Part shown: piece after piece, positions 3,833 through 28,292 of the stretch
How the letters are laid out: every line of letters begins with the position of its first letter
Numbering within the stretch: position 1 is the first letter of the stretch
Source: Ricordea florida
Lineage: Eukaryota > Cnidaria > Anthozoa > Corallimorpharia > Ricordeidae
Length of the DNA stretch: 64,000 nt
Direction of reading: 5' to 3'
Assembly: GCA_949710005.1 (NCBI GenBank)
Contig: OX453275.1
Location: 4,233,473-4,297,472 of the forward strand
The notes under the pieces: generated by a model
What the model saw: the letters and a program-made list of their open reading frames with translations, nothing else
What the model was told of the DNA's origin: nothing
Database searches by the model: none
Position numbers and translations under genes: made by a program

Positions 3833-3841
3833 GGAAAGTAG

Positions 3842-3861
3842 TTTAAAGGTTTCTTACTGAT
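3842..3861 (+). promoter_or_regulatory. Late-type promoter motif before 72-aa gene
   Basis: TTTAAAGGTTTCTTACTGAT, 31 bp upstream of the ATG at 3873; the element 2 counterpart at 19741-19760 is nearly identical in reverse complement. Confidence 0.55.
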
Positions 3862-3872
3862 ACAGTAAAAAT

Positions 3873-4091: not shown

Positions 4092-4093
4092 TT

Positions 4094-4486: not shown

Positions 4487-4499
4487 AAAATTATTTTTT

Positions 4500-4529
4500 G
4501 TTATGTAACCAGTAATTAGGTTATATAAC
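4500..4529. terminator. Convergent-gene hairpin (element 1, SSB side)
   Basis: GTTATGTAACC (4500-4510), 8-nt loop, GGTTATATAAC (4519-4529). It lies between the ends of two convergent genes. The same hairpin recurs at four other gene ends in this pair of elements. Confidence 0.55.
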
Positions 4530-4552
4530 ATAATTTTATTTCTTATTTAAGT

Positions 4553-6751: not shown

Positions 6752-7366
6752 ATGGATGACTACAAGGGAATTTATCCGCAATTACCTATGAATGGCGATC
6801 CAAATAATTTCAGACTACAAAAGTCATGTGAAGTATTACATAATCTTCAAAAGGAAATTAAACATTACGAAGATGTTAGGAAAAAGTATAATCGAGCGAG
6901 AGGAATATTTACAAAAATAAGTGTTTGTAGTGGGATATTTTCAGTTATCCTATCTGCAAGTGGACTTGGGACTTCCCTTACTGGTTTTGGTGCTATTGTT
7001 GGTATACCATTAGGAACTGTGGGTGGCATTTGTGGGGTAATATCAGTTGTTTTTGGTTCGTCTTCTAAACGACTTTCTCATAAAGTTAGTAAACATGAAC
7101 AGACAGTCTCTCTGGCAAAAGCAAAAGTAAATACCATTCACGACTTGGTTTCAAAGGCACTAAAAGATAACGCTATATCTGACCAAGAATTTTCTCTAAT
7201 TTTATCAGAGGTGGATAAGTTTGAAAAGCTAAAACAAGAAATCCGTCAAAAAAACAGGAAAGATACAGAAAAAAACTTAAATATGAATCAGATAAGAACA
7301 GAGGTTCGGGCGGAAATATTAAAGGAACTGATAGAAGTGAGGGAAAGAACCGATCCCACACATTAA
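6752..7366 (+). CDS. Glycine-rich membrane protein, 204 aa, with probable -1 frameshift extension
   Basis: Zero-frame product of 204 residues. The N-terminus reads MDDYKGIYPQLP, a helical region follows, then a long Gly/Ser/Val hydrophobic region (about residues 55-110, LSASGLGTSLTGFGAIVGIP and following), then a charged helical C-terminus. The element 2 homologue is 16320-16916. Near the end, GAA AAA AAC contains the canonical slippery heptamer A AAA AAC (7270-7276) in the correct phase. The -1 frame is open from there to the stop at 7432-7434 and encodes an extension conserved in element 2. Two products are therefore likely: 204 aa, and about 227 aa by frameshifting. Probably a virion or membrane-remodelling protein; function unknown. 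Confidence 0.8.
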   Translation: MDDYKGIYPQLPMNGDPNNFRLQKSCEVLHNLQKEIKHYEDVRKKYNRARGIFTKISVCSGIFSVILSASGLGTSLTGFGAIVGIPLGTVGGICGVISVVFGSSSKRLSHKVSKHEQTVSLAKAKVNTIHDLVSKALKDNAISDQEFSLILSEVDKFEKLKQEIRQKNRKDTEKNLNMNQIRTEVRAEILKELIEVRERTDPTH

Positions 7367-7434
7367 AAATTTCATATGAAAGAACTGATGTGGGTTTTAA
7401 TTGTTTTGCTGGTATTAGAAAAGAAATGTTTTAA
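7270..7434 (+). other. Predicted -1 programmed frameshift site and conserved trans-frame extension
   Basis: Slippery A AAA AAC at 7270-7276, then a -1 frame with no stop for 52 codons. The last ~22 codons lie beyond the zero-frame stop and match element 2: of seven differing codons in the first 21, five are third-position synonymous changes in this frame, and the stop falls at the same codon. The end overlaps the promoter motif of the next gene. Confidence 0.6.
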
Positions 7435-12374: not shown

Positions 12375-12992
12375 AGTAGGTGAAAAAGGCGGGTACCAAG
12401 ACAATTTAGCTTGTGAGCTAATTTTGATAGAGATTTTGATGGTAATATCAAGCCTATGTGAAATTGATGAGGATTTGAAACATTTTATTATATAATAAAA
12501 GATTTAACAAAGTACATGTCGGTTGTTTGGGTGGGTGGGCGGGCACTTTCTGTGATATTGTTAAGTTTATGATAATCAATGAATAGTGTGGGCAGGTTGC
12601 CGCCAAGCCGACACCAAGTTGATATCAAGCCTATGTGAAATTGAAACCGAGCTGGCGATGCGGGCTTCCAGGACAATTTAGGTTGTAAGCTAATTTTGAC
12701 AAAGATTTTGTTAGTGATTTCATCAACGAGCGTAATTTGTGTTTATACTAATTTTGATAAAGATTTTTATATAAAAATGATTTCGGGTTCCAAGACAATT
12801 TAGGTTTAGCCTAATTTTATCAGAGATTTTATTAAAAAAAATTGAATTCTAAAATAGATTTAAAGGACTAAAATGATTTGATAAAGATGGAACAGAAAAA
12901 CGTGAAAGAACTTAAACTTCTCGCTAAAGAGCGCGGGATACCGAGATATTATTGGTTGCGTAGAGAACAACTTATTGAATCTTTAGAAAATG
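12375..12992 (+). repeat. Left terminal inverted repeat of element 2
   Basis: 618 bp pairing with 27675-28292. Identity is essentially complete in the parts compared, except the innermost ~45 bp, which show about five differences. Inside are three degenerate copies of a CAAGACAATTTAG...CTAATTTT...AGATTTT unit (12395-12440, 12668-12710, 12790-12832) and two copies of ATATCAAGCCTATGTGAAAT. The repeat also holds the promoter box and the start of the zinc-repeat gene. Confidence 0.9.
12861..12873 (+). promoter_or_regulatory. Early-type promoter box in left terminal repeat
   Basis: TAAAGGACTAAAA, 26 bp upstream of the ATG at 12887. Similar boxes precede the SSB-like gene (18230-18242) and the 190-aa gene (13311-13323). 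Confidence 0.4.
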
Positions 12993-13240
12993 CCGCAATC
13001 GAATATATAAAACAACCGAAAACTAATAAGTGTATTCATGGTAAAATAAAATATTACTGTATGCCATGTGAAGGATCACAAATATGTGAACACAAAAAAC
13101 AGAAATCGCGTTGTATTGAATGTGATGGTGGTAGTATTTGTGAGCATAAACGGAGGAGGTATCAATGTAAAGAATGCGATGGGAGAGGAATATGTATTCA
13201 TGGAAAACAAAGATGGTTTTGTGAAGTGTGCGAAAAATAA
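12887..13240 (+). CDS. SAP-like domain plus Cys/His zinc-repeat protein, 117 aa
   Basis: The start is taken at the first in-frame ATG (12887); the ATG twelve bases upstream is followed by a stop. Residues 1-35 (KNVKELKLLAKERGIPRYY) look like a SAP/Rho-N-type helix-extended-loop DNA-binding motif and are shared with the N-terminus of PolB, because both lie in the terminal repeat. The rest consists of four Cys-x-His...Cys-x2-Cys repeats (CIHG, ICEH, ICEH, ICIH, each followed by Cx2C), a pattern seen in algal and giant-virus proteins. It probably binds nucleic acid; early expression is suggested by the promoter box. It ends just before a hairpin. Confidence 0.75.
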   Translation: MEQKNVKELKLLAKERGIPRYYWLRREQLIESLENAAIEYIKQPKTNKCIHGKIKYYCMPCEGSQICEHKKQKSRCIECDGGSICEHKRRRYQCKECDGRGICIHGKQRWFCEVCEK

Positions 13241-13260
13241 GATGAATAATAAAAAATTAT

Positions 13261-13290
13261 GTTATATAACGCAAATAAGTGTTACATAAC
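13261..13290. terminator. Gene-end hairpin after zinc-repeat gene
   Basis: GTTATATAAC (13261-13270), 10-nt loop, GTTACATAAC (13281-13290), 20 bp past the stop. Here the downstream gene is in the same direction, so the hairpin marks a gene end rather than convergence only. Confidence 0.55.
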
Positions 13291-13310
13291 AATATAAAAT
13301 TAATTTATGA

Positions 13311-13323
13311 TTAAGGATTAGAA
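13311..13323 (+). promoter_or_regulatory. Early-type promoter box before 190-aa gene
   Basis: TTAAGGATTAGAA, 28 bp upstream of the ATG at 13339. Confidence 0.35.
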
Positions 13324-13338
13324 AAGATTGCAAATAAA

Positions 13339-13911
13339 ATGGAAGACGGCGAACTTTATTTAAAGTTTTTTAATGAAAAAGGTTTTCTTATTCGTGAATT
13401 TATAGATTCAATAAATAAAGATTTGTTAAAAAATATATCAAAATATCGCGGTTTTATTGATGAAATAAATAGATATATTTATTTTGAAATTTATTATGAT
13501 GATAATGATGGTGATGATGATGAATATAATGTTTATCATTCTATTATTTTTGAACCCGATATAAATTTTGGTGTTAATGGTATATATGTTGATAAGTTTT
13601 TAAAAGATTTATTAAATTGCGCTAATGAAAATTATGAAGAATTGTTAGAATATTTTGGTGAGGATAATATATTTTTTGGTTATTATGATAAGGAATGTAA
13701 TATTAATAATTTTGATAATAAGTTTATCGTTAAAAAAATAGATGTTGTTATATATGTAAATGAAGATAAAATAAATCATAAAAATAAATTCTATAAAAAC
13801 TTGTATGATGAATTAATGGCTGTAGCATGGCATCCATCTAGATATTTAGATTGGTGCACTGATGTTGAAGAGTTAAGATATTTGAAAAAACTATGGGGTG
13901 AAGAAGATTAA
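13339..13911 (+). CDS. Acidic 190-aa protein, unknown function
   Basis: A very AT-rich gene coding for an Asn/Asp/Tyr-rich acidic protein. The only notable block is the C-terminus, LYDELMAVAWHPSRYLDWC followed by an acidic EEL segment. An AWHP-x-R...W tail of this type is, from memory, seen in several giant-virus proteins; that is recollection rather than a computed match. The gene is absent from element 1, where the PolB-N-like gene occupies the equivalent place. Base composition is even more AT-rich than its neighbours, consistent with separate acquisition. Confidence 0.65.
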   Translation: MEDGELYLKFFNEKGFLIREFIDSINKDLLKNISKYRGFIDEINRYIYFEIYYDDNDGDDDEYNVYHSIIFEPDINFGVNGIYVDKFLKDLLNCANENYEELLEYFGEDNIFFGYYDKECNINNFDNKFIVKKIDVVIYVNEDKINHKNKFYKNLYDELMAVAWHPSRYLDWCTDVEELRYLKKLWGEED

Positions 13912-13925
13912 TATTATATAATTAT

Positions 13926-13955
13926 GTTATATAACTCAATAAATGGTTACATAAC
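13926..13955. terminator. Convergent-gene hairpin between 190-aa and penton-like genes
   Basis: GTTATATAAC (13926-13935), 10-nt loop, GTTACATAAC (13946-13955), filling the 50-bp gap between two convergent stop codons. Confidence 0.6.
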
Positions 13956-13961
13956 AAAAAT

Positions 13962-14582
13962 TTATGTGAATCTTAAACTAAAAGTTATAGATTGCCCTTT
14001 TAGATCAAATTTTTTCCAATCAGAGTCTAAAATGGTTAAATCAAAGTGATTAATAAAGTTATCATATTTTCGAACAGGAATTGTTGGATAATCTTTTGAC
14101 GGAATGTTTGCTAGTAATTGGGATGGCCGTATTTTTACATTTTTACCTTTATTCGTGTATGACATTCTATTATCAACTATACTGCATAAAAGTCTCAAAT
14201 GTTCTTTTATAGTTATATCTATTTGACTTATTTTAAATAAAACCTCTGACACCCCCAAAGAATTTTGCAAACCCTGGGTAAATTTAATGTTAATTGTTTT
14301 ATTGTTGATTATGTAAGCAAAATTATCACCGATAATCATTGCTATATTTTTACCCTTTTCGCTGAGCTCAATTAATATTTTTATATCATTTATGGAATAT
14401 GTTCCTGGATTAAATATTACTAAAGGCTTATCTTGTTCATCGGTTATTTTTTCTTGATTCTTTAAAGTTATTAGTCTTTTTGTTTTAATATTACAATCTA
14501 AAAGTTGTAATTCACTAACGTATTTCATTGGGGGGTCTAAATAAACCCGCGTTTCAGAATCATACATTGTAATGCTAAACAT
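13962..14582 (-). CDS. Putative minor capsid (penton-like) protein, 206 aa
   Basis: Homologue of the element 1 gene at 9273-9908. The start (MYDSETRVYLDPPMK), the LQLLDCNIKTKRLI block and the end block (LANIPSKDYPTIPVRKYD, then a TFSLRF strand) are the most conserved; the middle is diverged with small gaps. The beta-rich single-domain size suits a vertex protein. A weak promoter-like TCTAAAC box lies 27 bp upstream. No signal or membrane segment. Confidence 0.5.
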   Translation of the reverse strand: MFSITMYDSETRVYLDPPMKYVSELQLLDCNIKTKRLITLKNQEKITDEQDKPLVIFNPGTYSINDIKILIELSEKGKNIAMIIGDNFAYIINNKTINIKFTQGLQNSLGVSEVLFKISQIDITIKEHLRLLCSIVDNRMSYTNKGKNVKIRPSQLLANIPSKDYPTIPVRKYDNFINHFDLTILDSDWKKFDLKGQSITFSLRFT

Positions 14583-14616
14583 TTTTCATTTTGAAGGTAT
14601 ATGTTTAGATTAATTT

Positions 14617-16203
14617 TTATCGAAATAAAAACCAAGATAATAATCCTCCGGCAAATATTAAAACAATAAGATTATTTTGATGAGAAGATGTTTCTATATT
14701 ACTAACTTCATCTGTTTTTTCTGATTCGTCGCTATTTGTTATTTTTGGTTTCCTTGGTTGAAGATTGGTATTTAATAAAACTTTTGATGTTCCTAAACTA
14801 TGAGTTATTCCAACATTTTTTGTTCCAACATTTATTGAATTATTTACCCCAAATTTCATATCTTCTGTTGCTATTTTCAGATTATTATTATATCCAATAA
14901 CGCTTTCTGTATTTATAATTAAATTGCTTGGCATCAACAAAACATTAGGGGCTATAGCTAAATCAAGCCGTACTTTTGATTCTTGAACTGCCATTTGATA
15001 TCTTTGATTTGAATTTGCGATATCATTTTCAATCACAGAGCTTTCAAATAAATCTATAAATTCTTGCTGAGTTTCAAATGCTCTTCCCCCATTACCAATA
15101 ATTGAATTCCTAGTATTAACTTGGGCCCCCAAAACGCAATAAACAAAAGCTTCAACCGATCTATTTATTCTCCCTAATCCAGCATTTGTTAATCCATATC
15201 CAGATTCTGGTATAAACCATGCATATTGAAAATCAACAAAATAATCATTTCGAAGCATAGATATTAAATTCCCATCTATTTTTTTACCGCCATCATCGGA
15301 AAATCTATTTGCGCTGCTTGGCCATATATTAGCTTCTGTATCATAACCTCTTACAATTCTGACATCTTGATTTCCACCACCTATCGCCTGACCACTAGCG
15401 CTTCCAGGAACACTTCCTGGTGGTACATATCCTTTTCCATAATCAATGAATACATCTCCAACCCCATGGTTTGCACCCCCCTTCCATCTAAAATCGGCCA
15501 AAGGCTTATTTAATCCCTTATAATCTTGATTATTACTTAAACCAAATTCTGCGCATAAACGATTATAAGCATTTTTGTTGTATGGATTATTTTTTAAAGA
15601 AAAAGTTTGTTCGCCGGGTAATGGTACAGATAATTCATATAATATTCTTCTTATTGTAAAGTATATGTGAAATATAAAAAAACTTCTAATAACTTTTGGG
15701 TAATTTAAACTATCATTTAAACTTACACCGCATCCAGATGTTGCGCACCAAACCGCCATGTTTAATTGCTGAGGCCAGTGATTAATATTTGGTTTATTCA
15801 ACCAAGATCTAGCTTCTTTACCACTAGTAAGTCCTACAGTCTGATTTTTAAATACATTTTTCATGGGAGAAGTGAAGCTGTCTTTATCTGAAACATATAT
15901 ATTTAAAATAGTTAACATTTTTGTTACATTTTTTGCAGATTCATCGAATTTAATACCGGGTATTGGGTATGTGTTTTTTGTAGATGATAAACTTTCTGGA
16001 AACGACCCTAAATCTTTCCATAATAATGTTTTCAAATTAGTGGGAAGATCATCGGTCCATGTTTTTCCAGAAGGATCATCATCAGACATAACTGTTACCC
16101 CATTAACTTTCCATTTAATATAACCACCAAATGAATCATTAATAAATGTAAATTTATCAAGGTTAACATTTGGATAACGATTTTTGAAATCATTTAAAAG
16201 CAT
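14617..16203 (-). CDS. Large conserved C-terminally anchored protein, 528 aa
   Basis: Homologue of 7470-9047. It differs by an inserted Gly/Ser/Pro-rich loop near residue 250 (GYVPPGSVPGSASGQ) and by the low-complexity linker before the single C-terminal membrane segment (NLIVLIFAGGLLSWFLF). Conserved aromatic and Cys-containing blocks (HWPQQLNMAVWCATSGCG, then FTIRRILYELS) imply a structured ectodomain or lumenal domain. The start is supported by a promoter motif 23-29 bp upstream. Likely a virion structural protein; not otherwise recognised. Confidence 0.75.
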   Translation of the reverse strand: MLLNDFKNRYPNVNLDKFTFINDSFGGYIKWKVNGVTVMSDDDPSGKTWTDDLPTNLKTLLWKDLGSFPESLSSTKNTYPIPGIKFDESAKNVTKMLTILNIYVSDKDSFTSPMKNVFKNQTVGLTSGKEARSWLNKPNINHWPQQLNMAVWCATSGCGVSLNDSLNYPKVIRSFFIFHIYFTIRRILYELSVPLPGEQTFSLKNNPYNKNAYNRLCAEFGLSNNQDYKGLNKPLADFRWKGGANHGVGDVFIDYGKGYVPPGSVPGSASGQAIGGGNQDVRIVRGYDTEANIWPSSANRFSDDGGKKIDGNLISMLRNDYFVDFQYAWFIPESGYGLTNAGLGRINRSVEAFVYCVLGAQVNTRNSIIGNGGRAFETQQEFIDLFESSVIENDIANSNQRYQMAVQESKVRLDLAIAPNVLLMPSNLIINTESVIGYNNNLKIATEDMKFGVNNSINVGTKNVGITHSLGTSKVLLNTNLQPRKPKITNSDESEKTDEVSNIETSSHQNNLIVLIFAGGLLSWFLFR

Positions 16204-16225
16204 TTTATTCTTATGTTTAATTGAT

Positions 16226-16232
16226 CTTTAGA
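16226..16232 (-). promoter_or_regulatory. Late-type promoter core before 528-aa gene
   Basis: TCTAAAG inside the palindrome GATCTAAAGATC (reverse strand), 29 bp upstream of the ATG at 16203. Confidence 0.45.
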
Positions 16233-16251
16233 TCGAGAATAAAATGTTAAT

Positions 16252-16400
16252 TTAATTAACCTCTCTTCTAATTCCCGCAAAACAATTACAACCAACATCA
16301 GTTCTCTCATATGAAATTTTTAATGATCTGGATTTGTTAGTTCTTTTAATAGATTTTCGCGCACTTCTCTCCTTATCACAGACATATCCAAGTTTTTTTC
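16252..16400 (-). other. Predicted -1 programmed frameshift site and conserved trans-frame extension (element 2)
   Basis: GAA AAA AAC at 16400-16392 contains slippery A AAA AAC in phase with the 198-aa frame. The -1 frame is open for 46 codons to a stop at 16254-16252, giving a predicted 221-aa product. The part beyond the zero-frame stop (KISYERTDVG, then NCFAGIR) matches the element 1 extension. Confidence 0.6.
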
Positions 16401-16916
16401 TGAGTTTTTTCTAAATTTTTGTCGTATTTCAAGTTTTAGTTTTTGAAACTTTTCCAATTCCGCTAAAATTATAGAAAATTCTTGATCGGATATAACATTA
16501 TCTTTCAAAGCCTTTGAAACCAAGTCATTTATAGTGTTTAATTTTGATTTTGCAATTGCGGCGGTTTGTTCGTGTTTACTAACTTTACCAGAAAGTTTTT
16601 TAGAAGCAAAACCAAATCCAACAGATAATCCCCCAAAAACTCCACCCACAACCCCTAAAGGAATCCCAACAATAGCTCCAAAACCAGTAAGAGATGTACT
16701 CAATCCACTCGCTGATAGAATAACTGAAATCAAACCGCCAGAAACACTAATTTTTGTGCATATGGTTCTAGCCCTATTATATTTTTTCCTTACTTCTTCG
16801 TAATGTTTAATTTCTTTCTCAAGATTTTGTAATACTTCGCTTGATTTTTGCAGTCTGAAATTAATAGGATCTGGATTATTAGGTAATTGAGGATAAATTT
16901 TATTGTAGTCATCCAT
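16320..16916 (-). CDS. Glycine-rich membrane protein, 198 aa, with probable -1 frameshift extension
   Basis: Homologue of 6752-7366. It has an N-terminal YPQLP motif, a charged helix (EIKHYEEVRKKYNRAR), a long Gly/Ser/Val hydrophobic span (about 55-115) that could form two membrane passes, and a charged helical tail. The zero-frame C-terminus is six residues shorter than in element 1, showing relaxed constraint on that tail, while the overlapping -1 frame extension is well conserved. A promoter motif lies 34 bp upstream. Likely a virion membrane protein made in two C-terminal forms. Confidence 0.8.
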   Translation of the reverse strand: MDDYNKIYPQLPNNPDPINFRLQKSSEVLQNLEKEIKHYEEVRKKYNRARTICTKISVSGGLISVILSASGLSTSLTGFGAIVGIPLGVVGGVFGGLSVGFGFASKKLSGKVSKHEQTAAIAKSKLNTINDLVSKALKDNVISDQEFSIILAELEKFQKLKLEIRQKFRKNSEKNLDMSVIRREVRENLLKELTNPDH

Positions 16917-16943
16917 ATTGTATTTTACTGATCAGTGTGATAT

Positions 16944-16950
16944 CTTTAGA
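16944..16950 (-). promoter_or_regulatory. Late-type promoter core before 198-aa gene
   Basis: TCTAAAG (reverse strand), followed by ATATCACACTGATCAG; 34 bp upstream of the ATG at 16916. Confidence 0.5.
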
Positions 16951-16954
16951 TCTG

Positions 16955-18172
16955 TTACTTTCTTTTCTTTATGTTTTCTACAAAATATAGAACTACAGCC
17001 ATTATCAAAAGCCAAGCATTCTTTCCTAAAAACCCAATTACTTCTCCAGCTGTTTTGAATAAAAAGCTAACTATTGCACCAACCATTCCTGGCAATATTT
17101 CACCTAATTTTTTACCAAGAGTTTTTAAACCATTACCAACACCCCTACCCAAAGTAGATAAACCTTTAGAAAGATTAGAAACTATAACCCCAATAATGAC
17201 ACCTACTGCACTTATAACAGCAAAAACTGTAAAACCATACTTTTTGAATATATACTTTATCCGCTCTCGCAATGGCAAATTTTTAAGTATTTCATCTTTT
17301 CGCCCATCTATAACTGATAATTGTTCTTCAATTGAAATTGTTTTATTTCTAAGTTGTTCTTTTAATTTATCATTCTCAGCTTTTAATCTTTCTTTGCTTT
17401 GTTCTAACTTTGTTAAATTTGATTTTCCCTTCTTATTTTTTTCTATTTCCTCTTTGCATAATTTTAGTTCTTCAAAAAGTCTCTCTGCTTGTATTTTTAA
17501 TTCTATATTCTGTTCAGCGGTTTGATCAAAAAGACTTTTATTTTCTGCTTTTTCCAACTGTTGTTTCTCAATGAATTTCTTAAGTTCTTTTTCTCTTTCG
17601 GCATATCCATTAATCTCCTCCGTTCTTGTCGCTAAAAGTGAATCTATTCCTTGTACTGCAGAAAGTAATTCATTATGTTTTGCTTTTTCTTCATTAAATT
17701 GTGATATGGCATCATTATATTTATCTAACATTGTTTCATAATCGGCACCTAGAGCTTTTCTCATTGTTTTTGGTAAATCTTCAAGCATAAGAACTTTATC
17801 TTTAGTAAGTATAACATGTGGTGCAGAACCCTTTCTATTACTAAATTCTGCTAATATACTACCATCTTCTCCATATGTTACATTAAATGTCGCATCATTA
17901 GGATTGAAAGTTGGTAAATAGCGTTTGAGTTCCTGACCCGCTTCTCGCCTTCTGTCATATTTCTCATCTCTTTCTTCAATATTTGGTGTTTTTTTCTCTT
18001 CATCTTTTATTTCCCATTGAAGTCGTTTTCTTTCTTCCATATATTCAGAGTAACCAAGATATCCTTGATCAATAGATGTAGATGTGTTTGGGGATAAATA
18101 AACTGTTTCATCATTGTTCTCGCCATCATCAGTTCCTTTTGGCAAATCTTCTAATGGTATATCCTCTTCCAT
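16955..18172 (-). CDS. Coiled-coil membrane protein, about 405 aa
   Basis: Intact homologue of the broken gene at 5471-6713. It has an acidic N-terminus (MEEDIPLEDLPKG), a globular stretch with conserved [KR]ALG[AV]DYE[ST]ML, a long coiled coil (about residues 175-285, Glu/Lys/Leu-rich), a conserved NLPLRER..YIFKKYGFT block, then hydrophobic and Gly-rich segments ending in a membrane segment and KKRK. A further ATG 15 bp upstream is in frame only because of one base fewer in an A run. In element 1 that ATG is out of frame, so 18172 is preferred. Probably a membrane-anchored fibre-like or scaffold virion protein; inference. Confidence 0.75.
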   Translation of the reverse strand: MEEDIPLEDLPKGTDDGENNDETVYLSPNTSTSIDQGYLGYSEYMEERKRLQWEIKDEEKKTPNIEERDEKYDRRREAGQELKRYLPTFNPNDATFNVTYGEDGSILAEFSNRKGSAPHVILTKDKVLMLEDLPKTMRKALGADYETMLDKYNDAISQFNEEKAKHNELLSAVQGIDSLLATRTEEINGYAEREKELKKFIEKQQLEKAENKSLFDQTAEQNIELKIQAERLFEELKLCKEEIEKNKKGKSNLTKLEQSKERLKAENDKLKEQLRNKTISIEEQLSVIDGRKDEILKNLPLRERIKYIFKKYGFTVFAVISAVGVIIGVIVSNLSKGLSTLGRGVGNGLKTLGKKLGEILPGMVGAIVSFLFKTAGEVIGFLGKNAWLLIMAVVLYFVENIKKRK

Positions 18173-18198
18173 GATTTTTTTACTCATCAGTAAGAAAT

Positions 18199-18205
18199 CT
18201 TTAGA
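18199..18205 (-). promoter_or_regulatory. Late-type promoter core before coiled-coil membrane gene
   Basis: Reverse strand TCTAAAGATTTCTTACTGAT (18205 downward), 33 bp upstream of 18172 and identical to the element 1 copy over 20 bases. Confidence 0.6.
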
Positions 18206-18229
18206 TTGAAAAACTAAATTAAAATTTGA

Positions 18230-18242
18230 TAAAGGATTAAAA
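18230..18242 (+). promoter_or_regulatory. Early-type promoter box before SSB-like gene
   Basis: TAAAGGATTAAAA, 31 bp upstream of 18261 and near-identical to the box in the terminal repeats. Confidence 0.4.
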
Positions 18243-18260
18243 AAAATATAAAAAAATAAA

Positions 18261-19052
18261 ATGATGAACGAAACTACACAATTAATAGATATTAATATTT
18301 ATAAACCTAAAGTAAGCATGGTTTTTTCTAAACCAATTGTTGGTGAAATTCCTGGAAGTAAACCAAAGGTTGAATTTAAAAGAATTAAAATTTTTACAAA
18401 AAATGATGATGGAACAGAAGGGGAACTTGTTATTCCAACCGGTAATTTATATTCTTTTGGTGTTTCTACAAACACAAACCAAACGGGTGTAATTACAGAA
18501 TATACATTTCCCTTATGTTTATGGAGTGGAAGTAAACCAACACCTGAAGAGGAAAAATGGATTGATTTATTCAATGATATAGTCGACAATTGCATCGATC
18601 ATTTGTTTATTAATAGAGTAAAAATTGGTAAATTTGAGTTGGAAAGAAATGAGCTTGAAAAACAAAAAGGAGGTTTAAATCCTCTATATTGGAAGTTGGA
18701 GCAATCTTCAATGGATAGAGTTCCAGATAGAGGTCCAACTTTATATGCAAAATTAATTTGGGATAAAAAACAAGACCAAATTTTAACCAAGTTTTATAAC
18801 TCTAAAAATGATAAGTTAATTGATCCATTAAAATTATTAAATAAAGGTTGCCGCGTTGAAGAAGGTGTAATAAAAATTGAATCAATATTTATTGGGGCTC
18901 GTATTTCTCTCCAAGTAAAACTTTATGAAGCAGTTATAGAACCAAACAGAGAAATGAAAAGATTAACAAAATTTAGAGGTTTAACTATTTCAGATAGTAA
19001 ATCTGCAGCTGAAGAAATGGATGAAGATTCTGATGATGGGAGTATTTTGTAA
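18261..19052 (+). CDS. Putative single-stranded DNA-binding protein (NCLDV/T7-like)
   Basis: Homologue of 4553-5374, 263 residues (262 if the second of two adjacent ATGs is used). Strand-like conserved blocks are GELVIPTG.LYSFGVS, YTFPLCLWSG, VPDRGPTLYAKLI and IFIGARISLQVKLYEA. It ends in an acidic tail (MDEDSDDGSIL), the hallmark of SSBs that recruit replication proteins. It faces its neighbours head-to-head and tail-to-tail, forming an isolated replication-class transcription unit with its own promoter box and terminator hairpin. Confidence 0.52.
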   Translation: MMNETTQLIDINIYKPKVSMVFSKPIVGEIPGSKPKVEFKRIKIFTKNDDGTEGELVIPTGNLYSFGVSTNTNQTGVITEYTFPLCLWSGSKPTPEEEKWIDLFNDIVDNCIDHLFINRVKIGKFELERNELEKQKGGLNPLYWKLEQSSMDRVPDRGPTLYAKLIWDKKQDQILTKFYNSKNDKLIDPLKLLNKGCRVEEGVIKIESIFIGARISLQVKLYEAVIEPNREMKRLTKFRGLTISDSKSAAEEMDEDSDDGSIL

Positions 19053-19072
19053 ACAATAATAAATATACTTAT

Positions 19073-19102
19073 GTTATATAACCAAATTACTGGTTACATA
19101 AC
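19073..19102. terminator. Convergent-gene hairpin (element 2, SSB side)
   Basis: GTTATATAACC (19073-19083), 8-nt loop, GGTTACATAAC (19092-19102); the positional equivalent of the hairpin at 4500-4529 in element 1. Confidence 0.6.
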
Positions 19103-19112
19103 AAATAATAAT

Positions 19113-19505
19113 TCATAAGAATTTACTAACTGCATAACCTAAACCTAACATTCCAGCTCCAACATATACCATTTCTCCCGTTTTTTGTTCATCGCTTGGT
19201 TTGTAATAATCAGAGAATTTGGGTTCGGTCATTTGCCCATACAATTCAAAAGCTTGGTTTGTAGTCGAAATATTTTTTGATGCTTGATATTTTTCATCTT
19301 TTTTCTTCATTTTCCAATCAATCATTTTTTGCCTTTTTTCCTGATATTCTGCGTAATCTCTTTGGTATTTTTCTAATGCTTTATCGTGTCGTATTTTTTC
19401 TGTATCCACATTATGCCCAGAAAGACTTTTTGCAAGCGCATTACCGCCAACAAATGCTGTTGCATTCAATATTGCTCCACCAATCATCATCGCTATTGCT
19501 GCCAT
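19113..19505 (-). CDS. Virion-type membrane protein, 130 aa
   Basis: Same length and layout as 4094-4486: N-terminal hydrophobic segment (IAMMIGGAILNATAFVGG), a charged helical middle beginning TEKIRHDKALEKYQ, and a Gly-rich C-terminal hydrophobic segment ending AVSKFL. Conservation is highest at both ends and in the charged core. It starts 6 bp after the upstream 72-aa gene ends, so a shared transcript is likely. Confidence 0.72.
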   Translation of the reverse strand: MAAIAMMIGGAILNATAFVGGNALAKSLSGHNVDTEKIRHDKALEKYQRDYAEYQEKRQKMIDWKMKKKDEKYQASKNISTTNQAFELYGQMTEPKFSDYYKPSDEQKTGEMVYVGAGMLGLGYAVSKFL

Positions 19506-19511
19506 ATTTAA

Positions 19512-19730
19512 TTATTTTGGTAAAATCTTTTGATCCTCTAAATATGTTTTAAGATACATACTTCCGGATAATACGGCCACCCATTTTGCATAATTTGTAA
19601 TACTTGAGGATGGGTCGCTCAAAAATGATTCTTTCATTATCTTTTTAGCCACATACCCAACTCCAGCTCCCAATCCAATAAGTGTCGCCGAATCAGTTAC
19701 AGTTTTCACAAGTTTATTTTCGCTTGACAT
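19512..19730 (-). CDS. Small membrane protein, 72 aa
   Basis: Nearly unchanged from 3873-4091, including DPSSSITNYAKWVAVLSGSM and the C-terminus YLEDQKILPK. Hydrophobic segments lie at about 13-28 and 48-61. The near-identity of such a small protein indicates strong constraint. Confidence 0.74.
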   Translation of the reverse strand: MSSENKLVKTVTDSATLIGLGAGVGYVAKKIMKESFLSDPSSSITNYAKWVAVLSGSMYLKTYLEDQKILPK

Positions 19731-19753
19731 TTTTTACTACATCATTAAGAAAC

Positions 19754-19760
19754 CTTTAGA
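19754..19760 (-). promoter_or_regulatory. Late-type promoter core before 72-aa gene
   Basis: Reverse strand TCTAAAGGTTTCTTAATGAT, 30 bp upstream of the ATG at 19730. Confidence 0.5.
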
Positions 19761-19772
19761 TGACTTTAGTAA

Positions 19773-20195
19773 TTATTCCATTCCTAAAGATTTTGGGGTT
19801 AAATGCAATGGAATTTTTGAGGGTTGGGGTATTTGCGGAACTTGCGATAAATCAGGTATCCTATTAGAATATTCAACCCTAGCTTTTTCCTTATATCTCA
19901 TAAAAAGATCAAATGCTGTAAACCCCAATCCAACAACGGATAAAACAGTAGTAAAAGATAACTCTGGAAGCCACGATTTCGCTTCGCAATGATTTGATTC
20001 ATCATTTTGCTCTGTAGCCCGCAGGGTCTCTTCACGTTTCATTTCCCTAGCTAATGCTTCTTTTGCTTTTTTATTATATTCTGCCAATTTTTTGCCGGCC
20101 GCTACTTTTTTAGGATCTTTCTCCCTCTTTTTAGTATCTTTATTTTCAGTTGTGGGATCTGCCGTAATTTGCTCAACTTCAGATTGTTCAGACAT
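19773..20195 (-). CDS. Basic single-pass membrane protein, 140 aa
   Basis: Homologue of 3419-3832. A basic helical stretch (KKREKDPKKVAAGKKLAEYN and following) precedes one hydrophobic segment (FTTVLSVVGLGFTAFDLF), then a proline-rich tail that is not conserved. A Cys appears in the linker. Likely a virion protein linking membrane and DNA core (inference). Confidence 0.7.
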   Translation of the reverse strand: MSEQSEVEQITADPTTENKDTKKREKDPKKVAAGKKLAEYNKKAKEALAREMKREETLRATEQNDESNHCEAKSWLPELSFTTVLSVVGLGFTAFDLFMRYKEKARVEYSNRIPDLSQVPQIPQPSKIPLHLTPKSLGME

Positions 20196-20217
20196 TATTA
20201 TTTAGATGCTACAAATA

Positions 20218-20229
20218 AGTTTTTAGATC
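20218..20229 (-). promoter_or_regulatory. Diverged late-type promoter core before 140-aa gene
   Basis: Reverse strand GATCTAAAAACTT, 34 bp upstream of the ATG at 20195; one base away from TCTAAAG. Confidence 0.35.
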
Positions 20230-20232
20230 TGT

Positions 20233-20763
20233 TTAATATACTGTATCAATACCTTCAGTAGATTGCTTAGTTTCCTGATCAGTTGTGTTAGAATTTGCTG
20301 ATTCTTGTTGATTTTTGTTGAATTTTATGTGCTTAGCAACTTGAAATAACCCGCTAGCAAGTGCAGCCAATCTCCCCGCCTTCAATGCTAATAGCCCAAC
20401 AATGTTTGTTAGTTCACGATTAACCAAATCATCATTCTTCAAATCATCGCAAAGAGCATCAATATCATCAACTGGAACTAAATATGAAATAAGTTTGGAA
20501 ACTAATTGAAGTGATGAATCTACCAATCCGCCGTTAATTTTCTTACCCATTACCGCCTGATACCGGTTAAAATATTTTTCTACATCGCGTTCCGATAATT
20601 TTTTTATATCACCCAAACTCATTTCAACCCCCAAATATTCCTTTGTTGTTCCGAGCGCCGCGAGAATTGCGAGAGATTCTTGTTTTATTTCAAGTTCATC
20701 ATTATCATTTACCCCGGTCTTTACTTCAGTTTTTTCTTCAATGTAATCTTCAACGTTTGTCAT
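20233..20763 (-). CDS. Conserved element protein, 176 aa, unknown function
   Basis: Homologue of 2624-3157. The start at 20763 (MTNVEDYIEE) is chosen over an upstream ATG because it aligns with the element 1 start and avoids overlap with the ATPase gene. The core from LEIKQESLAILAALGTT to AKHIKFNK is almost identical, the tails vary. Not recognised; virion role inferred from position. Confidence 0.75.
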   Translation of the reverse strand: MTNVEDYIEEKTEVKTGVNDNDELEIKQESLAILAALGTTKEYLGVEMSLGDIKKLSERDVEKYFNRYQAVMGKKINGGLVDSSLQLVSKLISYLVPVDDIDALCDDLKNDDLVNRELTNIVGLLALKAGRLAALASGLFQVAKHIKFNKNQQESANSNTTDQETKQSTEGIDTVY

Positions 20764-20768
20764 CTTTG

Positions 20769-21395
20769 TTAAATCACTTCGGGTATCTCTAAATAACAAT
20801 TAAATGGATAACGCAAACTCAAACATAGTCTAGAATATTTTTCAGTTTTCAGGAGTTGTACAAACTTTTTACCCAATTCATAATCCAAATCACCGCCATA
20901 ATCTTCGAAAAACATTTTCATACCTTTCTGCGATGGATTATGAAAAGTAACAACGCAAGCCACATTTTCCCGAAATGGTTTTGCTATTGATGTCAATTGT
21001 TGGGTTAAAACCCACATTGATAAACCATGATGTCTTCCCGAGAATGCTAAATCTATAAATTTATTAGATCTTTTCTTCAGATCAGTGGATACGGCGCAAT
21101 CATCTAAAATTATTAATGTATTTGTACCGGAGAATAAAGTTTGGCAATCATTTAACAATTCATTAATCTCATCGAGATTACTTGCATCTGGTGATAATAT
21201 AAAGAATCTCTTGTCCCCACGAGCGAAATTATGATATGTTTTATTTTTAGAATAAGTTGGACAAATTAAAACAATATATTCAAAAACTTTTCGGAATGGG
21301 CCGCGGAGCTGTTCAATTAGGTACTTTGTTTTTCCACAATTTGTTGGTCCAGTTATTATACAATGAAAAGGAATTTTATCTCGTAAATCTTCCAT
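20769..21395 (-). CDS. Genome-packaging ATPase (A32/FtsK-HerA type)
   Basis: 208 residues. Walker A GPTNCGKT at 16-23 and Walker B LIILDD at about 94-99; the HHGLSMWVLTQQ segment follows. About 90 percent identical by eye to 1963-2601, with changes mostly conservative, indicating purifying selection before or after integration. It lies between the capsid gene and the 176-aa gene as in element 1. Confidence 0.92.
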   Translation of the reverse strand: MEDLRDKIPFHCIITGPTNCGKTKYLIEQLRGPFRKVFEYIVLICPTYSKNKTYHNFARGDKRFFILSPDASNLDEINELLNDCQTLFSGTNTLIILDDCAVSTDLKKRSNKFIDLAFSGRHHGLSMWVLTQQLTSIAKPFRENVACVVTFHNPSQKGMKMFFEDYGGDLDYELGKKFVQLLKTEKYSRLCLSLRYPFNCYLEIPEVI

Positions 21396-21420
21396 ATTTT
21401 TGTGTCATAACATTATGTTT

Positions 21421-22665
21421 TTAGTACTTAATTGATCTCAAACTTGAATTCATTATTTCCATCATTGCATCGGCTACAACAAACATATGACAAGTTATTA
21501 CTACTGAGCTTGATGATCCACTTTTTTTCCTTTTAATTTCTATTTTTACTCCATCATGTGTATTATTTAGAGCTAGTCCCCCACCATGAATATTATTATC
21601 TGGGTGAGTTCTAGTATCAAGCCAAAGAGCAAACTTATTTGTATAAAAATCCCCTTCTTTTACATTATACTTTACTATTTTTGGGGATCGTTTTTTAACA
21701 GATTCCCAAAGATCTGATATAATCATACCTTTAGAGTATATTCTATTTGGTACACCATCAACATCAATATTAACAGAAGTTATTCCAGGATAGAAAAAAT
21801 TTTCTGAATCTCTTGCACCACCGGCATATGGGGCAATAAACAAAAATAATATTCCGCTCATTGATCTTCTAGGTAAATTAACATGTTGATTAATAACTTC
21901 ATCAGCTCCAGTTAAAAATGTAAAAGTTTTGTGTAAAGTAACATTTTCATAAAAGAATCCTTTGCCAATTTGATAAGTTGATTTAGCTTCTTTAGCTAAA
22001 TATTCACTTGAAATTGATGAATATTCTAACTCTAAATTTTTGAGCGAATATGATGGTGTTTTAGTTGTATCAGAATAAACAACAATATCAGAAACAGGGG
22101 CTAATGTAATCTCAAATATTAAATGATTTTCTAATGCTTTTGGATAAAAAACCCCATGATCTTTTAAAATAGGATGATTTATTGGTATTCTATACTTTGT
22201 ATTATGTACTACCGCAAGGGCTACTTCTTTTGCATCAGAATCATCCTTATCACCCGCATTTGTTCTAAGTTTTCTAATATTTTCATCAGAAATACCTTGT
22301 TTTAATCTATCTTTACGCTCTTCTTTAGTTAAAAATAAATCATGATATGTTTGAAATAGATCATATCTTTGGGTATCTTGTAATGTTTCACCTCCAAAAA
22401 GAACTTTTAATCTGTAAACAAGATTAGCCCCTAAATTATTAACAAATCTATTATTTGCATGACCCTCAACATCTAAATCAAATAGAAGAGATACGCTTCC
22501 AGGTACAATCACTAAATTCTCAGAAAGTTTTGGAATATTTATATATAATGTTTCGCCGGGGCTGGCCGATGATGGGTTTAGAGTAATTCTATTTAATGTT
22601 GATTCTGCCTTCAAACCAAAGGGTTCTCGTGGAATTCTGTTTGGATTAATTTTTTCTGACGTCAT
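21421..22665 (-). CDS. Putative double jelly-roll major capsid protein
   Basis: 414 residues, homologous to 709-1950 throughout. Conserved blocks include INPNRIPR, TLNRITLNPSSA, IPKLSENLVIVPGS, RLKVLFGGETLQDTQRYDLF, HGVFYPKAL and DSENFFYPGITS. The promoter motif (reverse TTTAAAGGTTAGAC) starts 34 bp upstream. Strand-rich composition, lack of membrane segments and adjacency to the packaging ATPase support the capsid assignment; a structure prediction would settle whether it is a double jelly-roll. Confidence 0.72.
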   Translation of the reverse strand: MTSEKINPNRIPREPFGLKAESTLNRITLNPSSASPGETLYINIPKLSENLVIVPGSVSLLFDLDVEGHANNRFVNNLGANLVYRLKVLFGGETLQDTQRYDLFQTYHDLFLTKEERKDRLKQGISDENIRKLRTNAGDKDDSDAKEVALAVVHNTKYRIPINHPILKDHGVFYPKALENHLIFEITLAPVSDIVVYSDTTKTPSYSLKNLELEYSSISSEYLAKEAKSTYQIGKGFFYENVTLHKTFTFLTGADEVINQHVNLPRRSMSGILFLFIAPYAGGARDSENFFYPGITSVNIDVDGVPNRIYSKGMIISDLWESVKKRSPKIVKYNVKEGDFYTNKFALWLDTRTHPDNNIHGGGLALNNTHDGVKIEIKRKKSGSSSSVVITCHMFVVADAMMEIMNSSLRSIKY

Positions 22666-22687
22666 TGTAATTTATAAGATACTTTGT

Positions 22688-22879
22688 CTAACCTTTAAAC
22701 CCCTTCACACTATTATTCTTTAATTTTTCGATATGTTTTAATAAACATTCTCTCGCATCAGGAATTAAAATCATAATATTAAAAATTTTATCGCCATCTT
22801 CCATATGTAGAATTTTTTTTCTAATAATTTTTTTCATAAGATTAATTTGATATTCGCTAAAATTTTTTTCCTCCACCAT
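22688..22879 (-). CDS. Small basic protein, 63 aa, element-2 specific
   Basis: Lies between the integrase and capsid genes, where element 1 has only 33 bp. The sequence is Lys/Ile-rich (MKKIIRKKILHMEDGDK) with no known motif. Its C-terminal codons overlap the capsid promoter motif (22693-22699), so it may be a genuine small gene or a fortuitous frame. It starts 33 bp from the divergent integrase start, keeping the compact divergent layout. Confidence 0.45.
   Translation of the reverse strand: MVEEKNFSEYQINLMKKIIRKKILHMEDGDKIFNIMILIPDARECLLKHIEKLKNNSVKGFKG
22693..22699 (-). promoter_or_regulatory. Late-type promoter core before capsid gene
   Basis: Reverse strand TTTAAAG followed by GTTAGACAAAGTATCTTATA. 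The second part matches CAAAGTATCTTATAAAT upstream of the element 1 capsid gene, so conservation spans the whole promoter. Confidence 0.55.
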
Positions 22880-22912
22880 TTTTAATTTATAAAATACTTT
22901 GTTAATTTTTAA

Positions 22913-23890
22913 ATGATGTCAAAAATATATTATTCGGCTGGGGGGTATTGGAAAGGATATTCCGCAATTTCTAAATTAGCCGAGAAGGCGAAAGTAAGTA
23001 AAAATGAGGCAAAACAATGGTTGCAGAAACAGGCAATATGGCAAATCTATCTTCCAGCCCCAAAATATATACCTAGACCGCATTGGATGGTGGATAAACC
23101 AAATCAGATTCACCAAGCAGATTTATTATTTTTACCGCATGATAGAGTTGGAAGAAAAACATATAAATATGCGTTAGTTGTGGTTGATATCACCTCGAGA
23201 TATAAAGATGCAGAGCCATTAACCTCAAAAGAAAGTCGAGAGATATCAGAAGCTTTTAAGAAAATATATTCTAGAAGATTGAAATATCCTAAAACATTAA
23301 TGGTTGATCCAGGAAAAGAATTTATGGGCAAAGTTGGTAAACTCATGAATTACCATAATGTAAGAATACAAAGAAGTGAAGCTGGTAATCACAGAGCCCA
23401 AGCATTTGTGGAAAACGCAAACAGAATATTAGGAGAAAGATTATTTAGTCATCAATATGCGCAAGAAATGATTAGTGATACCAGATCTAGAGTATGGGTG
23501 AAAAGATTACCAGCTATTCTAAAAACTTTAAATAATACAAAAACTAGAATAACCGGTAAAGAGCCTGATGAGGCTATAAAAATGAAAGAACTCGATTTTG
23601 AACCTAAAAATTATCAGCGAGAGGTAGGGCTTGACGAGGCTAGATTGCCTCCTAGTGTTAAAGTTAGATATTTATTATCTCCGGGTGAACTTGAGGGCGG
23701 AGAAAAAATAAGGGCAACAGATCCTATTTGGAGTCCCAAAATTTATTATATTTCCAGAGGCGTGGTTTCGCCCAATCAGCCAGTTTTATATTATTTAATT
23801 GACGGGCCTAGTAGGGGATTTGTAAGGGAAGAATTACAGATTATTCCTTATGATACAGAACTTCCGCCAGATTCTGTTTTGAAACGATAA
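22913..23890 (+). CDS. Polinton-type DDE integrase, 325 aa
   Basis: RVE-family integrase. An N-terminal helical region (about 15-45) precedes the catalytic core with D70 (HQAD), D132 (MVDPG) and E167 (AFVE); the second and third acidic residues are 35 apart, the classic DD35E spacing. The C-terminal part (about 245-320) has short strands (KVRYLLSPG, PVLYYLIDG) resembling the SH3-like or chromo-type DNA-binding tail of Polinton integrases. It is divergent from the capsid side. Its last 43 bp overlap the 3' end of the oppositely oriented polymerase gene. Intact. Confidence 0.95.
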   Translation: MMSKIYYSAGGYWKGYSAISKLAEKAKVSKNEAKQWLQKQAIWQIYLPAPKYIPRPHWMVDKPNQIHQADLLFLPHDRVGRKTYKYALVVVDITSRYKDAEPLTSKESREISEAFKKIYSRRLKYPKTLMVDPGKEFMGKVGKLMNYHNVRIQRSEAGNHRAQAFVENANRILGERLFSHQYAQEMISDTRSRVWVKRLPAILKTLNNTKTRITGKEPDEAIKMKELDFEPKNYQREVGLDEARLPPSVKVRYLLSPGELEGGEKIRATDPIWSPKIYYISRGVVSPNQPVLYYLIDGPSRGFVREELQIIPYDTELPPDSVLKR

Positions 23891-26800
23891 TGCCCATATG
23901 CAAAAGTATTTATTCCATCCTCACAAATTATTCTCTTATCATCATCGGCAGATAGTGCAACTTTATTAACCGTTTCAGAATAAATATCATGTAAACGGCT
24001 TCTTATTACATTCATCTTTCTCATCTGGGGTTCTTTATTAAATAGACATCTCTTATAATCATCAAAGTTTATGGTCTTTTTTACTACTGATGTCTTTACC
24101 CCTTTATCCTTTTTTATCTCTTCTTCATTATCCATCCTATATGAGTATAGCTTTGCTCGTAGACCGACAAATTCGATTATCTGTTCGCCCCCGGCTTCAT
24201 CCTTAAACATATTTATTACTTTCTTATTCACATCAGTCTTAATACCTGATGGATGATTTTTTGTAAAGTTGCTTGTGTCAAACTTATACTTTACATCTGG
24301 GCTTATATCTTTATAGAAATCATCTGTTTCTATATCATAAACAAGACTGTCTGTGTCTGTAAACAACAATTTTGCTTTTTCCTCATATTTTGGTTTTATA
24401 TAATTATAATGAAAATCATACATTGTTGTTTTACTTAGATCTAGAATACACATGCCTAAATAAACAGGTTTATTGAATACTAACTTTTTTTTCTTCATAT
24501 GGATGGCTACAAGATTTTCACAAAAGATAGTGCGATGTTGATAGTTAGGTTTTGTTATTAATTTTTTCGCATCTTTTTTATTTGTAACTAATTTAATGTC
24601 AACCCTATTTCTAATGTTTTCCATTGTTTTACCAAATACTGAGTTATTCATTAACTTAAAGAAATCTTTCTCAAAATCATTCTTTGCTTCAGCCCTGAGT
24701 TCGGTATTCAAATCGATGTAAGGTTTTAACCAAGCCGATTCTTCAAATGTAATTCCTCTATGAATCTTTGTTATTTTTAATCCCAAACTTTCGTAAAGTT
24801 TTAGTGTTTCATGATGAACAACATAATTTACCTTATTGTTTAGGTTTGGGATTAATTTCTCCACTTTATTAACTACAAGCCTTTCGGGGGCTAGAGGATA
24901 ATCATTATGTAAATCATGCAGGTTATTTGAGTATTCTAAATCAACCTCTAATATACATGGTATATTTTCCCAGTCTGAAAAATCTTTATCAGTCATCCAT
25001 CTAAAACCGTGAGTAGGTAGCGGGTTACTCATTCCACCGCCATATAAATTATTTGCGTCGAGATATATAATATAACTTATTATTTTGTTAATATCAAAGT
25101 TTTTCATGAATGGGTTGTTTGCTTTCCCATATCTAGTAGAAATCATAGATACGCCGCCCCGAATACCTCTCTCAATCATAAGCAGCATATCTATGTCAGT
25201 TAACAACTCTAAATTTACTTTTGTTATCTTTAATGCGGCATCCCAAGCTAGCCCGGGCGCGGTATAATAATGTGCAGGATCTAATCCATAGTTTTTACTA
25301 CAAACATCTCTAAAATTCTCGAATACATCGGCTAAAAGTAATACATCTGACATAAGATATAAGTTATGATATTCCCTCATAGTTTTCATATTAAAAGTTT
25401 TCCAAACATTTTGCGCATGTTTATAATCATTATCTGATATATTTTCATCGTTTAGTATTGAATAGAATGCATCCTTTGGCGGAAGTTGGTTTGTACTTAG
25501 TTTATCTAATCCATCAAACCAATCATATGGAAATACGCCCTTTCTCAGCAATAAATTTAATTCTTCACCTTTACAGAAAATATTTAAGTTTTTGAAAGAT
25601 TCTTTTGGTAAATTATTTACTAATTTATCTAGACTTGACGCCATAAATTTAAATGAATCTATGAATCTAATATCACGCTTCACCTCAATCTGCTTACCTT
25701 CTTTATTTATAAATTCATCAACCACAATCTGCTTTGTGAAAGAAATATACTTTTCCTCATTATTTGGTATGCAGTTTATTTTACCTTCTGTTACACCGAG
25801 ATTCTTGATAAAAATATGCGCATCATATCCAGATAGATTATGAAATATTACTGGGATGAATTTTGGTATCTTATAATTTAAGTTACATTCATTATGGGCT
25901 GCTCCTCTATACTTTCCTGTAAGGTGGCAGTGATCTAATACCTTATCTTCTCCTAATTTTTCTTCACATATATGGCAGTAAATGGCATTTTCATATTCTT
26001 TTTTATCCATTTCTGACATATCCTCCGCCTTCTTATGATATTTTGTCTTATTATAAATTTCCTTAATATCTTTCTCCAAATTTTCTATAAATATCTGCGG
26101 TATATCATCATCTGGGGATTTAGCGGTATATCTTACAAGCTTGGGTGGAAATATTTTATCATCAAAAGACTTTATTAGATAGCTGAATCCTGATGCTTTA
26201 TGTTTCTGATATTGATTAGTATAACTTTCTCTTTCATTTGGTGAGCAGGTATGTATTTTCTCTGGATAACACTCAAAGTCCGCGTATACAACAAATGGCA
26301 CTCGCATTTTTCTATTATAATTATTAAATTTAATATACTTTGGATTGCCATCTTCATCTTTTGGCATTTCAATCTTAACTTCTTTATTTGCGCCGCAATA
26401 TTCTAGATGTTTTTCCAACGATTTTTCTGACTGAAATGCGTTTAAACATCTAGGGCAAAAATGCATCTTAGATTTATGTTTACTAACTTTTGCGGCTAAC
26501 AATCTACTCATATTCTTTATCCAACAATAGTGGTTATTTTCATCTTCTGATATTAAAAGTAGGTTGATTAGATAACCTTTTTGTTTTTTACTTATTCTTA
26601 GTGGGTATACATCATCATTATCATATCCATAGACATTAATCGTGTAATATGGATTTTGCTTTTCAAACCTATCAATCTGTTTTAATGAAGTGGGGAATTC
26701 TATTCCTGTCCAGTCGAAATTCTTCGAATTTTCAACCATTTCCTTGTTTTTTCTCTCTGGGTGAGTTTTTTTTATGTAAACAGCAGATGTAACGGCCCAC

Positions 26801-27780: not shown

Positions 27781-28292
27781 CTTTATCAAATCATTTTAGT
27801 CCTTTAAATCTATTTTAGAATTCAATTTTTTTTAATAAAATCTCTGATAAAATTAGGCTAAACCTAAATTGTCTTGGAACCCGAAATCATTTTTATATAA
27901 AAATCTTTATCAAAATTAGTATAAACACAAATTACGCTCGTTGATGAAATCACTAACAAAATCTTTGTCAAAATTAGCTTACAACCTAAATTGTCCTGGA
28001 AGCCCGCATCGCCAGCTCGGTTTCAATTTCACATAGGCTTGATATCAACTTGGTGTCGGCTTGGCGGCAACCTGCCCACACTATTCATTGATTATCATAA
28101 ACTTAACAATATCACAGAAAGTGCCCGCCCACCCACCCAAACAACCGACATGTACTTTGTTAAATCTTTTATTATATAATAAAATGTTTCAAATCCTCAT
28201 CAATTTCACATAGGCTTGATATTACCATCAAAATCTCTATCAAAATTAGCTCACAAGCTAAATTGTCTTGGTACCCGCCTTTTTCACCTACT
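27675..28292 (-). repeat. Right terminal inverted repeat of element 2
   Basis: Inverted partner of 12375-12992, equal in length (618 bp). It carries the polymerase promoter box and the first ~35 codons of PolB. The innermost ~45 bp differ at about five positions from the left copy, all inside coding sequence. Confidence 0.9.

Follow-up and report, generated by a model that had tools for sequence, protein, structure and literature searches.

The heptamer A AAA AAC is the slippery site of -1 programmed ribosomal frameshifting of the retroviral gag/pro type. A downstream stimulatory structure is usual, though not obligatory, in -1 programmed ribosomal frameshifting. A different route is taken in potyviruses, where P3N-PIPO is made by transcriptional slippage. 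This slippage is mentioned in PMC8310308. Closer to the elements described here, adintovirus Penton genes have been suggested to carry a slippery site close to their 3' ends; this comes from a KnotInFrame prediction, which the authors call hypothetical (PMC11071296). In the Polinton, Maverick and adintovirus literature that was searched, namely the accessible text outside subscription journals and supplements, no report was found of recoding in Polintons or of a switch in the gene described below.

The locus lies in a stretch of 64,000 nucleotides of Ricordea florida DNA, the whole of which is called the window here. It resembles the retroviral gag/pro type in its heptamer and phase, its overlapping -1 frame and its C-terminally extended product, but it differs in that no conserved stem-loop or pseudoknot was found, in being carried by a double-stranded DNA element and in having a short basic tail instead of an enzyme. 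With P3N-PIPO it shares a G followed by an A-run and a tail in the -1 frame; however, a viral RNA polymerase acts there whereas host transcription is presumed here. The adintovirus Penton case (PMC11071296) is alike in concerning Polinton-related viruses, a slippery site near the 3' end and an alternate C-terminus, whereas here another gene is involved and selection is shown on many copies.

Two Polinton-type elements were observed in the window. An rve integrase, a packaging ATPase and long terminal inverted repeats are present, and the likeness to Polinton/Maverick elements extends to a capsid-like protein and a presumed polymerase. In element 2, rve and Pox_A32 (an A32-like ATPase) scored above the Pfam cut-off and Capsid_N, in the capsid-like protein, just under it. 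Its inverted repeats are equal at 613 of 618 positions and it is flanked by the 5-base duplication TCCCC. The 1310-aa protein, a putative polymerase B by sequence motifs only, gave Pfam matches to Rho_N and Endonuclease_7 and to no polymerase model at E 0.01. The gene for this protein starts inside the right inverted repeat, and about its first 36 codons are also present in the left one (12887-12994). Element 1 begins outside the window, before its first base, and is at least partly decayed because its counterpart to element 2's 410-aa gene is broken into frames of 340 aa and 95 aa (5471-6713).

Several features outside the gene of interest were noticed in passing. An unlisted small gene (3833-4093), coding for about 71 aa, sits between those of 137 and 130 aa, where the two elements are 87% identical. 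Between the convergent genes of 130 and 273 aa lies a spacer (4487-4552 and 19053-19112) in which 60 aligned bases show 92% identity from one element to the other. By eye it contains an imperfect inverted repeat, and it is possibly a two-way terminator. The motif TYTAAAGAT occurs upstream of several genes in both elements, at 675, 3158, 3388, 5437, 6718 and 9240 (+) and at 12979, 16224, 16942 and 18197 (-), and the window has 13 matches, of which 10 fall within the elements, against 4.3 expected. It may be a promoter-like signal and is possibly akin to the late motif TCTA of mavirus. In addition, a tandem repeat with a unit of about 61 bases (58687-59507) adjoins the long frame 59554-63870, which we take to resemble a BEL/Pao retrotransposon.

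Table 1. Coordinates in the window of element 2 and of the two-frame gene in both elements.
Feature	Position	Strand	Description
Element 2, whole	12375..28292	-	complete; inverted repeats, flanking duplication, rve integrase, A32-like ATPase, presumed polymerase
Element 1 zero-frame gene, 204 aa	6752..7366	+	hydrophobic middle; without Pfam family above cut-off
Element 1 slippery heptamer A AAA AAC	7270..7276	+	in phase, codons E173 K174 N175
Element 1 -1 frame extension	7276..7434	+	52 codons and stop, last 22 past the zero-frame stop
Element 1 zero-frame stop	7364..7366	+	TAA/TGA in other copies, synonymous Leu TTA/TTG in the -1 frame
Element 1 second in-phase A AAA AAC	7249..7255	+	upstream of the main heptamer, not conserved
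Element 2 zero-frame gene, 198 aa	16320..16916	-	74% identity to the element 1 protein
Element 2 slippery heptamer A AAA AAC	16392..16398	-	in phase
Element 2 -1 frame extension	16252..16392	-	46 codons and stop

On hydrophobicity alone we infer that the product of this gene is a membrane protein; in the 204-aa form the hydrophobic stretch covers 19-residue windows from 51 to about 103. Pfam gave nothing above the cut-off for either zero-frame protein and no match for the two -1 pieces at the thresholds used, and an AlphaFold model (mean pLDDT 55.3) was too poor for use. The original prediction, that both elements carry an in-phase A AAA AAC at one and the same codon, was confirmed, the slip sequence being GAA AAA AAC at codons 173-175 in each. 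Measured from the ATG, the zero-frame stop lies at 612 nt in element 1 and 594 nt in element 2 and the -1 stop at 680 and 662, and both tails end 68 nt beyond the zero-frame stop. The common end predicted for the open -1 frame is thus present, and the predicted isoform lengths of 204 and 227 aa in element 1 and 198 and 221 aa in element 2 hold. Element 2 also has a second in-phase heptamer upstream, at 16410, at a codon different from that of the one at 7249 in element 1. Such a second upstream site was present in 8 of 62 rows of copies and, because it is not conserved, the one in element 1 is probably not the programmed site. A count over 10 gene pairs of the two elements and the one complete polymerase gene, with the cut integrase left out, showed no other gene whose two copies share an in-phase A AAA AAC at one codon.

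Copies of the gene were collected from the genome to which the window belongs (538 Mb, 48 contigs). Searches with the two zero-frame proteins gave 4995 and 4997 first-look candidates, of which 150 were scored each time; the two -1 pieces gave 3334 (element 1) and 3308 (element 2), again with 150 scored for each. The candidates include unconfirmed copies. A total of 160 short stretches were fetched. L012-L031 are ranks 2-21 of the first zero-frame-protein search (150/4995), which also gave L052-L071, many of them with odd open-frame lengths, whereas L032-L051 and L072-L091 were picked from the second (150/4997). L092-L111 are 20 of the 25 element 1 -1 piece matches with a stop within the query, and L112-L131 and L132-L151 are mostly low-identity matches of the element 1 and element 2 pieces respectively. 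A search with the database protein P0112 supplied L152-L162, which are 11 of its 12 matches reaching residue 210, and shorter matches as L163-L171. The two main families form 142 rows, made up of 140 fetched stretches and the two window copies, and represent 141 loci since L092 is the same locus as L052. All copies thus come from one genome, are related and were mostly chosen by similarity.

In 142/142 rows of the two main families (62/62, 20/20, 40/40 and 20/20) the slip codon carries the heptamer A AAA AAC, and an open -1 frame and the tail follow it. From the heptamer onward the -1 frame stays open beyond the zero-frame stop in 122/122 and 20/20 of these rows and in 9/9 further split copies from the P0112 search. 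Seven of these nine carry A AAA AAC and two, L170 and L171 of another family, carry A AAA AAA within GAA AAA AAA TTG and have the same two kinds of C-terminus; here the codon is altered while the slipperiness, as read from the heptamer, is kept. The heptamer expected in homologues was therefore seen in phase in all 151 rows with the split architecture (149 A AAA AAC and 2 A AAA AAA). On the tree of 138 copies it shows 0 changes, while the first base of the codon in which it begins, two bases upstream, shows 3 (E/Q). As evidence this conservation alone is modest, because 32 of 91 other invariant degenerate codons likewise show no third-position change and, over the 140 codons that precede the slip, 212/539 Asn codons are AAC (138 copies). 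Among 62 copies, Asn is written as AAC in 105/651 cases elsewhere, and the slip-site Asn is AAC.

The position of stop codons shows where the two frames would have to meet. A -1 stop lies at most 17 codons upstream of the heptamer in 120/122 rows, most commonly 48, 33 or 15 bases before it, and the interval from the heptamer to the zero-frame stop is free of -1 stops in all 122. Because of this distribution, the join must lie at or after the heptamer. In the search with the element 1 -1 piece 25/150 matches had a stop inside, against 0/150 for the element 2 piece, and in 20/20 of the 20 such copies fetched it was upstream of the heptamer. Over the interval from the heptamer to the -1 stop, the +1 frame averages 8.7 stops per copy (122 rows). 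Scoring AUG starts, we found an ATG in the -1 frame before the zero-frame stop in 0/122 rows. Other in-phase X XXY YYZ sites at or after the heptamer common to copies were sought in 82 copies and none was found apart from rare single cases. The overlap is always in phase and 21 to 29 codons long. The zero frame, judged by 14/15/55 changes by codon position in its first 17 codons after the heptamer, is still constrained there, which led us to reject a simple frame error at the heptamer. Its stop was observed as TGA in 68 rows, TAA in 52 and TAG in 2.

The tail beyond the zero-frame stop has 22 codons in 93/122 rows. In the early tail of the two window elements five of the seven differing codons were said to be synonymous third-position changes in the -1 frame; the recount agrees, and this pattern (about 0.045 binomial for one chosen frame, before allowing for frame choice) is weak evidence by itself. 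With a tree based solely on the upstream gene, the tails of 138 copies show 26/66/214 parsimony changes by -1 codon position (P 6e-5) and 90 amino-acid changes, compared with a mean of 222.6 and a minimum of 164 in 200 column shuffles. Before this tree was built L066 and L126 (whose in-frame inserts before the tail move it from the first zero-frame stop), L092 (the L052 locus) and L117 (identical in its stretch to L116 but at another locus) were dropped. A tree of 61 copies, with L066 left out, gave 15/22/88 changes over 17 tail codons (P 0.00015) and 30 amino-acid changes, compared with a mean of 87.8 and a minimum of 61 in 300 column shuffles.

The codon-based selection asked of the -1 frame was also borne out in these 61 copies, where tail pN and pS are 0.059 and 0.387 (ratio 0.15). 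In the zero frame they are 0.123 and 0.076 and in the +1 frame 0.136 and 0.122, both ratios being above 1. For the gene body, read in the zero frame, they are 0.076 and 0.382 (ratio 0.20), so that the tail is about as strongly constrained as the gene. The codon patterns in the two frames show protein-level selection on both C-termini. Constraint on the -1 frame was sought inside the overlap and none was clear, zero-frame third positions having 4.5 changes per column there and 5.0 upstream. The -1 C-terminus is basic, with a mean net charge of +6.3 against -0.3 for the zero-frame end (82 copies). Two other readings of the block after the stop were rejected. TYTAAAGAT-like motifs lie downstream of the block and its codon-position pattern points to coding, not to a promoter, and a zero-frame peptide beyond the stop would meet a further zero-frame stop in 44/122 copies.

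Several copies were observed to have a different end after the conserved FAG of the tail. In L020, L056, L064, L065, L102, L108 and L131 a different sequence common to these copies, with a peptide like RTESSPAKL, follows directly after the FAG codons, as if a repeat had been inserted at, or recombined into, one point. The tail end was not seen in all copies; in L123, for example, the -1 frame may extend past the fetched stretch.

A downstream stem-loop was also looked for and, contrary to expectation, was not found. Single sequences gave z-scores of -1.4 to 1.2 for downstream RNA structure and 32 copies a mean z of 0.23. Consensus folds were no stronger than -0.56 kcal/mol, and their z-scores went no lower than -1.6. 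No stem common to both families and no conserved stem or pseudoknot arm was found downstream.

The tail was also found in frame in some copies and proteins. In the P0112 search 12 of 150 scored matches reach residue 210 or beyond in frame, and the 20 stretches fetched from it comprise 7 A AAA AAC splits, 2 A AAA AAA splits and 11 copies with the tail in frame, which were picked for being fused. Eight of the 11 are fused through a longer slip-site run (seven A8 then C, one A9 then T), two through an extra A in an upstream run and one through another indel near the stop. These copies show that the A-run also slips in DNA and that copies encoding the long form only exist. At the protein level, a two-row alignment used as query found 174 relatives and C-termini were taken from 120 of them; the last search found 182, of which 120 were listed. 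Most of the 120 shown have a C-terminus of the zero-frame kind. Among the matches listed, the tail is in frame in P0044, P0057, P0071, P0107, P0112 and P0123, being short by some nine residues in P0057, P0107 and P0123, and P0125 has the tail start only. Because it is in frame in database proteins, the tail stretch is read as protein somewhere.

P0112 has 58% identity to element 1 over 82% of its length, and its tail shows weaker likeness but equal length to the end. The only named relative among the matches listed is from Nematostella (P0077). In a protein-level alignment of 142 rows, the two window proteins plus 140 from the database, the residues at the slip are EKN in 60, EKK in 34, EKR in 8, EKS in 6, QKN in 4, QKR in 3 and EKW in 1, with 26 other or gapped. 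No relatives were found in IMG/VR (protein and DNA patterns), GTDB genome contigs or phages, and L001, the one checked among the DNA matches L001 to L003, proved unrelated.

Recoding into the -1 frame is well supported by these comparisons, and the plainest explanation would be tandem tRNA slippage on A AAA AAC. Transcriptional slippage at A7, in which the polymerase adds an A in some transcripts that are then translated normally into the longer protein, fits nearly as well, although we regard it as the less probable of the two and, on balance, unlikely. It agrees with the run itself (A7 in the 142 rows, A8 in L170 and L171), with the lack of a stimulatory RNA structure and with the slipping of the same A-run in DNA. 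The C behind the run is unchanged in 138 copies though run length needs no such base, which speaks against it; that C may however be kept by the Leu of the -1 frame, and it is T in L170 and L171. Furthermore, transcription is presumably by the host RNA polymerase II, for which A7 is a short run for slippage. The ribosomal route is likelier from these sequence patterns but unproven.

Three further explanations were weighed. The 11 of 11 long P0112 matches fetched that proved to be fused, together with the fused and truncated relatives in the protein database, would suit a switch in the DNA itself, where the genomic run gains or loses an A and each element makes the short or the long form only, without recoding. 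However, the split was seen in 142/142 copies not picked for fusion and the tail is selected in these same copies; since it would decay in A7 copies if it were not expressed from them, we consider such a switch very improbable. A short intron joining the two frames is more improbable still. In the alignment of 61 copies one GT/AG pair, at columns 509 and 590, is kept in at least 95% of them and has the right phase by arithmetic, but it would take out conserved coding sequence including the heptamer, its acceptor side is purine-rich and no AG is kept in 95% of copies between column 590 and the tail. No convincing intron was found. Finally, long A-runs are error-prone in some long-read methods, and a systematic miscount could have split what is truly one long frame. 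Selection on the zero frame beyond the run, the keeping of its stop with three different stop codons and the database proteins from other sources that end at this stop (four of them labelled lgn) leave an assembly artefact with hardly any credibility.

The frameshift first proposed from two elements is thus supported, with a conserved heptamer, a selected tail and no -1 stop from the heptamer to the zero-frame stop in the split homologues of this genome. The 11 copies with the frames joined in DNA and the missing stem-loop qualify this support. We consider it probable that one start gives two proteins by a slip of the ribosome on A AAA AAC. Most ribosomes would stay in the zero frame and stop after its conserved C-terminal segment (204 or 198 aa). 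A minority would slip back one base, with the tRNAs on AAA and AAC re-pairing, and read on in the -1 frame past the zero-frame stop, so that the protein gains a basic tail (46-52 residues) closing in the conserved stretch of about 22 residues (227 or 221 aa). The longer form would then be the minor isoform of a virion or assembly protein that is associated with membranes; the slip on the ribosome, its efficiency and this role are all inferred. Points that weigh against this scheme are the lack of a conserved downstream structure, the lack of clear constraint on the -1 frame in the overlap, the 11 copies in frame in DNA and some relatives elsewhere whose slip-site residues are K-R, K-S or K-W.

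More tentatively, Polintons of this lineage might possess an old, structure-free switch, in which slippage at the A-run during gene expression sets the ratio of the two C-termini on a protein associated with membranes. One A gained by the run in the DNA would fix the long form, so that recoded and hard-wired elements occur side by side in a single genome. For Polintons the gene would provide a clear comparative case of recoding, where many natural copies serve as an evolutionary assay. It reveals an unannotated C-terminal domain and gives a concrete minor isoform to seek. For animal cells it may become a test case for slippage that proceeds without a stimulatory structure.
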